Assembly: GCA_017441765.1 (NCBI GenBank)
Contig: JAFRVK010000044.1
Coordinates: 1 to 64,000, forward strand
DNA: 64,000 bases
Source: Erysipelotrichaceae bacterium
Lineage (GTDB): Bacteria > Bacillota_I > Bacilli_A > Erysipelotrichales > Erysipelotrichaceae
Direction of reading: 5' to 3'
This document shows, in pieces, positions 12,913 through 15,915 of this stretch; position 1 is the first letter of the stretch, and each line of letters opens with the position of its first letter. The notes below the pieces were generated by a model. It saw only the letters and a list, made by a program, of their open reading frames with translations, searched no databases and had not been told where the DNA came from. Position numbers and translations under genes: made by a program.

Positions 12913-12988
12913 TGCGGATTAGCCAAGCGGTAAGGCAGCGGACTCTGAATCCGCCATTTCGAAGGTTCGAATCCTTCATCCGCAGCCA
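12913..12988 (+). tRNA. tRNA-Gln, anticodon CTG
   Basis: Full cloverleaf: acceptor TGCGGAT pairs with ATCCGCA; D-arm GCC/GGC; anticodon stem GCGGA/TCCGC around loop CTCTGAA (anticodon CTG); T-arm GAAGG-TTCGAAT-CCTTC; discriminator G and encoded CCA. The variable loop appears to be 6 nt (CATTTC). The 3' 17 nt are repeated at 14622-14638, marking an integration site. Confidence 0.95.
12972..12988 (+). repeat. Left direct repeat (att-like) in the tRNA-Gln 3' end
   Basis: TCCTTCATCCGCAGCCA, identical over 17 nt to 14622-14638. A tRNA 3' end repeated at the far side of foreign-looking genes is the classic footprint of site-specific integration. Confidence 0.8.
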
Positions 12989-12998
12989 ATAGTGATTT

Positions 12999-13021
12999 AA
13001 GCCCAGTTTATGGGCTTTTTG
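12999..13021 (+). terminator. Terminator just after tRNA-Gln
   Basis: AAGCCCA-GTTTA-TGGGCTT hairpin followed by TTTTTG. It lies inside the inserted segment, so it may have arrived with it. Confidence 0.8.
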
Positions 13022-13047
13022 TTTAGTTTGGTTTATTATCATATTCT

Positions 13048-13071
13048 AAAGCACATCCGCAGATGTGCTTT
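13048..13071. other. Perfect 10-bp hairpin downstream of the acetyltransferase gene
   Basis: AAAGCACATC-CGCA-GATGTGCTTT. It could end the minus-strand higBA-acetyltransferase transcript, although the following T-tract is weak. Its CATCCGCAG core also occurs in the tRNA-derived direct repeats. Confidence 0.5.
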
Positions 13072-13125
13072 ATATCATTGATAGAATCTACTCCATCTCG
13101 ATAAACTAGGATTTGCCGGTCTATT

Positions 13126-13653
13126 TTACAGTTTCAGAACAGCGGGAACTTCATCCCACCCTTTTGGCAGTTCTTTTTCCTCAAACCCAAAAGAAGTGTA
13201 CAGTTTTCTAGCTGTTTCGTTTTCCGGCTCATACGAAAGCCAACAATACTCAGCTTTTCCGGCGGGGAAGGTGCGAATGTAGTCAATGACCAGTTGTAGG
13301 GCTTGTTTTCCATATCCTTTTCGCTGCTGCTTTTTGTCGATCATAAAACGCCACAACAGATAGTTTTCAAAAACGTAATCTGGAGTATCTTCCTCTTCGT
13401 CTTCTTCTTCATCGTCTTTTCTTATATACCCGATCATTAAGAATCCAACGGGGTTTTCGCCAACGTATATTCCAAAAGGTTGAGCAAAACCGCCTTCCGC
13501 AATAGTCGCGTAAGCTTCTGCCAGACTGTACATATTGCTGGCTACAAATTCTTTCTGCTCATCGAAAACTTTTAACCCAATCAGGTCGTCCAGATTGTCA
13601 GTATCGACTTTTACGAGCCGTACAGTCTCTTCTTTGCTGCTGTTATTGTCCAT
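13126..13653 (-). CDS. GNAT-family N-acetyltransferase, polyamine-acetylase-like
   Basis: About 175 aa from MDNNSSKEE; AAAGGAG before the ATG at 13653 decides the start. The N-terminal LKVFDEQKEFVASNMYSLAEAY block resembles spermidine/polyamine acetylases of the BltD/PaiA kind. The acetyl-CoA loop is RFMIDKKQQRKGYGKQAL (Q-x-x-G-x-G/A). It ends LYTSFGFEEKE. An acidic stretch DDEEEDEEED (about residues 80-92) interrupts the sheet region. It lies downstream of higBA inside the tRNA-bounded insert; cargo or a third islet gene is possible. The substrate is inferred only from the N-terminal motif. Confidence 0.85.
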   Translation of the reverse strand: MDNNSSKEETVRLVKVDTDNLDDLIGLKVFDEQKEFVASNMYSLAEAYATIAEGGFAQPFGIYVGENPVGFLMIGYIRKDDEEEDEEEDTPDYVFENYLLWRFMIDKKQQRKGYGKQALQLVIDYIRTFPAGKAEYCWLSYEPENETARKLYTSFGFEEKELPKGWDEVPAVLKL

Positions 13654-13724
13654 ATTTTCTCCTTTACTGTCGATCTTTATTCTTTTTTTATATTTTTCAC
13701 ACAAACGCCGATTTTACGAGCTCT

Positions 13725-14000
13725 TTATTTGAACTCTATAACAAGATTCTTGCCCAGACCTTCTGCAATCCTCTGCAATGTTCTGATAGAAGGATTGGCT
13801 GTACCATTCTCCAGTTTGGAGATATCCCCCTGGGTGATGCCGGTAATGGAAGAGAGTTCCTTCTGAGTGATGCCCTTTTCATTTCTTGCATCGATCATCG
13901 CTTTTATGATCTGGAATTCCGGTTCCAGAGATTCCCATTCTTTTTTGAAATCAGGATCCTTCATCAATTCTTTCAATGTATCTTTTGCATATCTTGCCAT
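13725..14000 (-). CDS. HigA-like antitoxin, XRE-family helix-turn-helix
   Basis: 91 aa. The HTH is ITQKELSSITGITQGDISKLENG (about residues 44-66), typical of Cro/XRE repressors. The N-terminal part (YAKDTLKELMKDPDFKKEWESL) is the usual segment preceding the HTH in HigA antitoxins. It begins 1 nt after the toxin stop, so the order is toxin then antitoxin as in higBA operons. It should neutralise the toxin and repress the shared promoter. Confidence 0.9.
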   Translation of the reverse strand: MARYAKDTLKELMKDPDFKKEWESLEPEFQIIKAMIDARNEKGITQKELSSITGITQGDISKLENGTANPSIRTLQRIAEGLGKNLVIEFK

Positions 14001-14001
14001 T

Positions 14002-14349
14002 TCATTTTCCTCCTCTTTTCAGGTAGTTCTCTCTGCGGTCCTTTGCCAGTTTCAGTTCTCCCGAGGGAGTCTTCTGACTTTTCTTTACGAAACCGTTTGT
14101 GAGAATGATCCTTTTATCCTTATAGAAGAAATACAGGACTCTGGTGATATCGGAACTCTGTTTGATCCTGAGTTCAAAGATATCATCTTCCAGATGCTCG
14201 GAATAAGGAAGCCTGAGCTTTGTCCCATATTCTTCCAGAAGCGAAATTATCCATAAGACTTTGGCTTTCATCTTATTATCCAGAGAAAGAATAAACTCTT
14301 CCACCGGATATGTTCCATCGTCCTTCTGGTAATATTCAGCTTTAAACAT
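14002..14349 (-). CDS. HigB-like toxin, RelE/Gp49 (DUF891) family
   Basis: About 115 aa from MFKAEYYQ; AAAAGGAG before 14349 is the best start. Family features: LSLDNKMKAKVLWIISLLEEYG, FELRIKQSSDITRVLYFFYKDKRIIL, then NGFVKKSQKTPSGEL, the conserved C-terminal motif of Gp49/HigB mRNA interferases that cleave mRNA on the ribosome. First gene of the pair, with a near-consensus promoter. Confidence 0.9.
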   Translation of the reverse strand: MFKAEYYQKDDGTYPVEEFILSLDNKMKAKVLWIISLLEEYGTKLRLPYSEHLEDDIFELRIKQSSDITRVLYFFYKDKRIILTNGFVKKSQKTPSGELKLAKDRRENYLKRGGK

Positions 14350-14368
14350 AAAACTCCTTTTCATTCAA

Positions 14369-14397
14369 ATAATATATGTTTTATCATATATTGTCAA
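14369..14397 (-). promoter_or_regulatory. Promoter of the higBA-acetyltransferase operon
   Basis: TTGACA (14392-14397) and TATTAT (14369-14374) with a 17-nt spacer on the minus strand. The AT-rich spacer would be a natural operator for the XRE antitoxin. Confidence 0.75.
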
Positions 14398-14621
14398 TGA
14401 GCATGTTGTTTCTCTTACTTACAATGTTGATGCCGTCAATGATCTGCAAGATTTCTGCAAGATCGGCATTACAATTCTCAGATTAACTCATCATTCATCT
14501 TAATACATCATAATAACAAAACATCTAAAACTACGATATAATCTCGTAGAATAAGGCTTTCACGAATAAAAGGATTTTTCTCATTTTTCAATCCAAAACA
14601 CATATATCGTTCCGGAGGGTC
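14398..14621. other. Non-coding right flank of the islet
   Basis: AT-rich stretch between the higB promoter and the right direct repeat. No supported gene and no integrase remnant is visible. Confidence 0.5.
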
Positions 14622-14638
14622 TCCTTCATCCGCAGCCA
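14622..14638 (+). repeat. Right direct repeat (att-like)
   Basis: TCCTTCATCCGCAGCCA, a perfect copy of the tRNA-Gln 3' end at 12972-12988, 1650 nt away and in the same orientation. Confidence 0.8.
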
Positions 14639-14646
14639 GAGTATTC

Positions 14647-14673
14647 AAAAGTGCCTGATTAAGGCACTTTTTT
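14647..14673 (+). terminator. Terminator beyond the right repeat, probably the original tRNA terminator
   Basis: AAAAGTGCCT-GATTA-AGGCACTTTTTT hairpin with T-run, 9 nt after the repeat. Its position relative to the repeat matches where a tRNA terminator would lie before insertion. Confidence 0.75.
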
Positions 14674-14766
14674 GTTGTTCTGGGATGAAAACACTTTCTT
14701 TACAGAATCTGCAAGATTAAATGCTTTTCCTAGCAATTTTAACTCAGGAATGAGACCTTTAGTCAA

Positions 14767-15915
14767 TCAATCCCACATTTTTGTGTAATTACCTGTACCG
14801 TTGCCATTTGTTTTATAATAATCATCCATCAAAGAAACATATTGCCAGTTATCTGACCAGTGATCATTCGCTCCGGGTAAAAAATCCTTCAAATCGGATT
14901 TCTTGGAAGTGATGACCTCCAATCCATTATCCCAATACTGATGGGCGATATAAAGGTTCTCTTCATCGATACCGACAACGATCGCCGTCGTACCATCCCA
15001 CGCAATGATGTCTCCGCATTGGATTTCATCCGGGTCGATCTCATTCAGCCAGACAGCTCCTGCATCGCCATTGGACAGATCGGGAACACAGAAGACATCC
15101 CCTTCCGCATTATTACCTGCTCCGTAATCTCCAGGGTCGAATCCGGCCTGCACCAGACACCACGTTACAAAGCCACTGCAATCCAGTCCGTTCGGATGAA
15201 GTAGAACACCGCATGACATGTGCATCATAGAACCCCACATGCCAGGTCCTTCAATGATCCCTTTCGGGTCGATCAGAGAATATTTGTCTTCACTTAGATA
15301 CAAGCCTTTATGATAGAATCTTCCTTCTCCATCACAGTAGATCCCTCCGGTCATCCTTCCGTTTTCACAGAAATAAGGGATCTTGTAGTCGAAACACATC
15401 GACAGGAATCTGGCTGCTTCGACAACCGCCGCTCTGGTCTGATAGCCGACTTCATTGATCCTTGCTTCAAGAGCTTTGTCCAGGTAAGCAGCTTCTTCCT
15501 GCGTATAGGCATATTCATAGATATCCGTCTTGTAATTATCGATATGGGCTTTTGAATAGAGATTTGAAACAGAAACCTCTATCTTTTCATCCGTTTCAGG
15601 ACGATAGACAATACATTCGCCGGTTGCGACTGCTTTAAAAGACTCATCGTTGATTTCAAGCACTTCATCGCCTGAAAGGAACGTTACCGAATAGTCTCTT
15701 GTCTCTTCAAGACAGATATAAACGCTTTTTGAAACAGGCAGACTGTTAATGCGAGCAAGTTCTTTCTCTCTTGCGATTCTTTCTTCTTCTTCGATCCTCT
15801 TCTGTTCCTCGATAGCCAAAAAGTCGAGATATTTACCTCGATAATGGGAGAAAACAGGTATCAGCAGTACACAAATAAAAGCTAATACAACTATGACGGC
15901 CTTTTTATTTTTCAC
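14767..15915 (-). CDS. Membrane-anchored NlpC/P60-like protein
   Basis: 382 aa with an N-terminal membrane anchor (about 5-24), a Glu/Arg-rich linker (about 33-55) and a C-terminal NlpC/P60-like domain from about 245. The putative catalytic Cys is in NGLDCSGFVTW. NlpC/P60 enzymes cut peptidoglycan stem peptides. The position normally holding the first catalytic His (in HVGI-type motifs) reads TTAIVVGI here, while the later His is present in IAHQYW; the enzyme may be degenerate or use another residue. The start is GTG with no ribosome site, 6 nt after TAATAT. Confidence 0.82.
   Translation of the reverse strand: MKNKKAVIVVLAFICVLLIPVFSHYRGKYLDFLAIEEQKRIEEEERIAREKELARINSLPVSKSVYICLEETRDYSVTFLSGDEVLEINDESFKAVATGECIVYRPETDEKIEVSVSNLYSKAHIDNYKTDIYEYAYTQEEAAYLDKALEARINEVGYQTRAAVVEAARFLSMCFDYKIPYFCENGRMTGGIYCDGEGRFYHKGLYLSEDKYSLIDPKGIIEGPGMWGSMMHMSCGVLLHPNGLDCSGFVTWCLVQAGFDPGDYGAGNNAEGDVFCVPDLSNGDAGAVWLNEIDPDEIQCGDIIAWDGTTAIVVGIDEENLYIAHQYWDNGLEVITSKKSDLKDFLPGANDHWSDNWQYVSLMDDYYKTNGNGTGNYTKMWD

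Follow-up and report, generated by a model that had tools for sequence, protein, structure and literature searches.

A very probable integrase-less, CIME-like derivative of a tRNA-Gln integrative-element family in an Erysipelotrichaceae gut bacterium

A 1.65-kb islet at the tRNA-Gln(CUG) gene of an uncultured Erysipelotrichaceae genus is very probably an integrase-less, CIME-like derivative of a family of integrative elements that occupy this gene and carry a tyrosine integrase. It has a core at either side, arm-type sites at its right end, HigBA next to that end and a single cargo gene, but no genes for integrase, relaxase or replication and no left arm sites. Since full, integrase-bearing elements lie between the same repeats in sister species, the islet is most likely a stripped-down family member that is unable to move alone; these elements also give direct comparative support to the proposal of a preliminary description that it is the remnant of a larger element. 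The window, that is, the whole 64,000-nt stretch of DNA that was analysed, is contig C17 of a draft metagenome assembly of a gut bacterium (genome G000; 1.5 Mb, 77% complete), and it was compared with 36 genomes of the genus, all of them draft assemblies.

The 17-nt sequence TCCTTCATCCGCAGCCA forms the 3' end of the tRNA-Gln(CUG) gene and, as had been described, is perfectly repeated 1,650 nt downstream (Table 1). Both copies were located and are identical, and no third copy with up to two mismatches is present in the window, where 0.01 would be expected by chance. The open reading frame listing and Pfam agree with the earlier claims that only higB, higA and a GNAT gene lie between the copies and that no integrase is found among them; all of these genes lie on the minus strand, and every open reading frame of the islet is open. 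Relatives of the GNAT gene (59–65% identical, with 64% for the nearest) are located on other contigs of sister genomes. The GC content of the islet is 0.39 versus 0.41–0.44 in the flanks, a comparison that is not informative. A terminator does stand just outside the right copy, as was stated, but it is not peculiar to that copy, since the left one is followed by a terminator as well. The statement that each gene has its own regulatory sequences does not hold, for higB and higA, separated by one base, make up an operon under one promoter/operator.

Table 1. Features of the islet and its immediate flanks (positions in the window)
Feature	Position	Strand	Evidence or remark
tRNA-Gln (CUG; anticodon CTG)	12913..12988	+	ARAGORN; intact target gene, 3' end restored by left core
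Left 17-bp core (attL side)	12972..12988	+	Repeat search; without arm-type sites downstream
Intrinsic terminator behind left core	12999..13017	+	
Left-end segment with hairpin AAAGCACATCCGCAGATGTGCTT	13017..13113	+	76% identical to left end of integrase-less islet L245 (G041)
GNAT acetyltransferase, 175 aa, cargo	13126..13653	-	Pfam Acetyltransf_1, 1.8e-10
Module of higBA and operator	13708..14398	-	DNA 90.4% identical to right end of G013 element
higA antitoxin, Xre-type HTH, 91 aa	13725..14000	-	HTH_3, 5e-15; PDB 6af3 HigA, 3e-11
higB toxin, Gp49/RelE type, 120 aa	14002..14364	-	Gp49/HigB, 4e-26; PDB 6af3 HigB, 2e-10
higBA promoter, TTGACA-17-TATTAT	14369..14397	-	Overlaps palindrome AATATATG-TTTTAT-CATATATT
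Paired 11-bp direct repeats TCTGCAAGATT TCTGCAAGATC	14443..14464	+	End 157 bp before right core; probable right arm-type integrase sites
Right 17-bp core (attR side)	14622..14638	+	Repeat search
Terminator behind right core	14647..14671	+	
Single arm-type repeat TCTGCAAGATT outside islet	14708..14718	+	Where full elements have left arms
Right-flank gene, 382 aa, no Pfam match	14767..15915	-	Directly follows empty site in G010

The orthologous site was recognised in about 20 congeners by a response-regulator gene to the left of the tRNA gene. Exact matches to the 17-mer number 33, spread over 20 of the 36 genus genomes (reversed control, 0); all copies that were examined are tRNA-Gln 3' ends or repeats at right ends, and a terminator-like hairpin follows nearly every one. 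As a negative control, three species with a different tRNA-Gln 3' end have that 17-mer just once, and no integrase of the family was found in these species. Four matches to the 17-mer in viral contigs were rejected as chance, all lying inside unrelated sequence without arm pairs. Among the plasmid matches listed, similarity to islet DNA was confined to the stretch of the tRNA gene, and a search of plasmids for the family integrase gave none, with one weak match of 29% identity. In G010, the tRNA-Gln end and a terminator are followed directly by the right-flank gene of the window (89% amino acid identity), and this locus, the sole empty site found and part of a 57% complete assembly, is an empty site with one repeat. 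Such sites in relatives had been proposed as a check on the islet, and the presence of the same genes at this site in all relatives as the counter-evidence. Both comparisons turned out in favor of the proposed interpretation, since an empty site exists and the relatives do not have the GNAT–higBA combination here.

In sister species, the same 17-bp repeats enclose elements of 13–16 kb. The element of G017, the closest relative (response regulator, 92%), spans 13.8 kb between identical 17-mers (L032, G017:C12:76000-95700), with a tyrosine integrase adjoining the tRNA gene and with genes for a MobL relaxase, ParA, a ParB-like product and a phage-type replication organiser. It also contains two DNA-cytosine-methylase-like genes and a Vsr-like nuclease gene (read from sequence), which have the appearance of a defence block. 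In the same genome, approximately 7 kb separates the right repeat from the right-flank gene (L149, G017:C12:72000-82000); this stretch, which carries TIR-domain-like and leucine-rich-repeat-like genes (names from sequence) and no further repeat, is perhaps an older, decayed island. G013 (L037) harbors a 16.1-kb element, in which an integrase with two stops lies beside the tRNA gene and higBA is positioned at the far (right) end. Every match in the genus genomes to an integrase more than 40% identical to that of G017 adjoins a core; no integrase of this family was found in the 77% complete genome of the islet itself or in G005. Tandem elements are present at the tRNA-Gln site in G043 and G005 and are suggestive only as a sign of accretion; G043 (3.4 Mb) is probably a mixed assembly.

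The HigB-type (Gp49/RelE) toxin gene of the islet is followed by an Xre antitoxin gene, as in the type II toxin–antitoxin system HigBA (PDB 6af3/6af4); a palindrome also lies over the promoter, both partners match in sequence, and no difference from the known pair was found at this level. The palindrome, located between the -35 and -10 elements and conserved in G013, is probably the HigA operator. The chromosomal flank of G013 is 74.8% identical to the window, against 90.4% for the module, and by this comparison higBA has evidently spread horizontally. Contig G041:C6 (L082) also has a higBA-bearing right end, but it was left out of the independent cases. Over 4.2 kb, extending past the right core, its DNA is 100% identical to that of G013, whereas the chromosomes of G041 and G013 are otherwise 77% identical at this locus; the contig is probably misbinned.

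Full elements have paired 11-bp arm-type repeats near both ends, with two to three TCTGCAAGATT-like direct repeats about 50–80 bp after the core at integrase-bearing left ends and two repeats 147–160 bp before the core at right ends. Their position and form suggest that they are probably integrase arm-type binding sites. In the islet, G005, G044, G011 and G041, 157 bp separate the pair from the core, and in several of these cases the DNA between right arms and core is unrelated. For the arm pair motif GCAAGATTNNNGCAAGAT, the genus genomes gave 17 matches against 0 in the control; 14 are near an exact core, two belong to right ends whose core is mutated or decayed, and one is unrelated. The arm pair of the islet agrees with the G017 arms along 22 bp. 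A search for left arm sites in the islet gave a best score of 11/22, no better than random windows, and none was found in the other integrase-less islets (G005 and G041). The lone repeat beyond the right core is probably a relic of the left end of an older element. With it, the right copy has an attP-like layout; the left copy is attB-like.

The missing integrase and left arms, together with a GC content of 0.39 near the 0.41 of the flank, are also what would be seen if the islet were a degenerate and immobile relic, an old insertion whose genes are now ordinary chromosomal ones and whose HigBA is kept by addiction. This reading, a possible one that we do not favor, overlaps with a CIME-like derivative and differs from it solely in denying present mobility; against it speak the two cores, which are still perfect, the 22-bp agreement of the arm pair with G017, and the open state of every reading frame.

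Apart from the islet of the window, G005 contains a complete islet of 1.5 kb built on the same plan, whose genes encode ParE as the toxin, a DUF6290 antitoxin and a DUF4256 protein. In G041 (L245, G041:C21:292000-295546), an islet with one mismatch in its core and a truncated left end has YoeB/YefM together with one other gene at its right end. Another left end comes after it, carrying genes for a histidine phosphatase and for a lone DUF6290 antitoxin; G041 thus has a partly decayed pair of islets. The place beside the right arms is taken by replication and ParA genes in the fuller elements and by toxin–antitoxin modules of differing families in the islets (HigBA, ParE/DUF6290 and YoeB/YefM), and has therefore been held repeatedly by different such families. 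DNA identity between the islet and G013 covers just higBA and its operator, beyond which only arm sites and core are common to both. The simple internal deletion of a G013-type element was rejected as the full story, as the right end beyond higBA and the left end differ. Because the DNA between its right arms and core is unlike that of all other right ends seen, the islet, as judged from its sequence, is a mosaic rather than a simple internal deletion, and no direct parent was found.

The recurrence of islets, or parts of them, that combine one cargo gene with different toxin–antitoxin genes (in G000, G005 and G041, the last including the lone antitoxin), the right arms held at exact spacing despite sequence turnover, and the left-end hairpin common to G000 and G041 are consistent with a maintained non-autonomous class, in which compact cassettes of core, terminator, cargo, toxin–antitoxin pair, right arms and core are moved in trans by resident integrases, as opposed to one-off decay. 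Such a class is nevertheless unlikely: none of the cassettes has left arm sites, complete examples number two, no identical cassette was found at two places, and neither G000 nor G005 has yielded an integrase of the family. Slightly more doubtful still is an extended proposal, according to which the genus hosts maintained integrase-less mini-cassettes, each with one cargo gene and an exchangeable toxin–antitoxin pair, that recombine in trans at tRNA-Gln. The left core of the window is armless and the right core has arm-type repeats on both sides, and therefore the two look like an attB/attP pair; on this view, an integration-type reaction that needs nothing but integrase could release the islet. 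That the right 17-mer is a duplicated tRNA fragment from a decayed tRNA array rather than an attachment site would fit its match to the tRNA end and the terminator behind it, but is extremely improbable and was ruled out as an array duplication, given that identity ends exactly at the core, that the upstream tRNA sequence is absent, and that integrase-bearing elements of relatives are flanked by this very core.

For the CIME-like derivative, the anatomy indicates that the parent element would have integrated at the 17-bp core, regenerating the tRNA end and bringing a new terminator. Integrase and left arms were probably lost subsequently through deletion or recombination between tandem neighbouring elements. 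HigBA, judging from its family, would counteract loss of the islet, in the way that stabilisation of an island by a toxin–antitoxin pair is described for HipAB in Shewanella (PMC8978831). Movement would be expected only if a related element integrated beside the islet (accretion in cis) or supplied integrase in trans. The CIMEs of Streptococcus thermophilus, S. salivarius and S. agalactiae are 1.2–13 kb long, carry cargo, lack integration and transfer genes while retaining their attachment sites, and form tandem accretions at one target gene (PMC5704250, PMC7563491). The islet is likewise bounded by attachment repeats, with both cores perfect and the right arms intact, and has cargo without genes for integration or transfer; descent from an ICE or IME is possible, with higBA and its operator shared with the G013 element and the arm sites shared with that of G017. 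It differs from CIMEs in that left arm sites are missing, that it is not currently beside a full element, and that its mosaic sequence does not fit an origin by simple deletion alone. Compared with an IME with a tyrosine integrase, the islet shares its site, its core and its right arm sites with the G017 element, but has neither the G017-type integrase nor the MobL relaxase, ParA or replication protein, and no relaxase gene lies between its cores. Tycheposons, which belong to another host phylum, resemble the islet in targeting tRNA 3' ends, in their modular cargo and in having integrase-less versions. The islet is thus most likely CIME-like in kind, a known type in a new place, and nothing categorically new is needed to account for it.

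The locus provides a well-resolved case of full integrative elements at one tRNA gene shrinking to a toxin–antitoxin pair, a cargo gene and one end, in a group of little-studied gut bacteria. The fixed 157-bp spacing of the arm sites offers a simple signature for remnants without an integrase. If the cassettes were indeed mobile in trans, they would represent a compact, integron-like shuffling of single genes with addiction modules.
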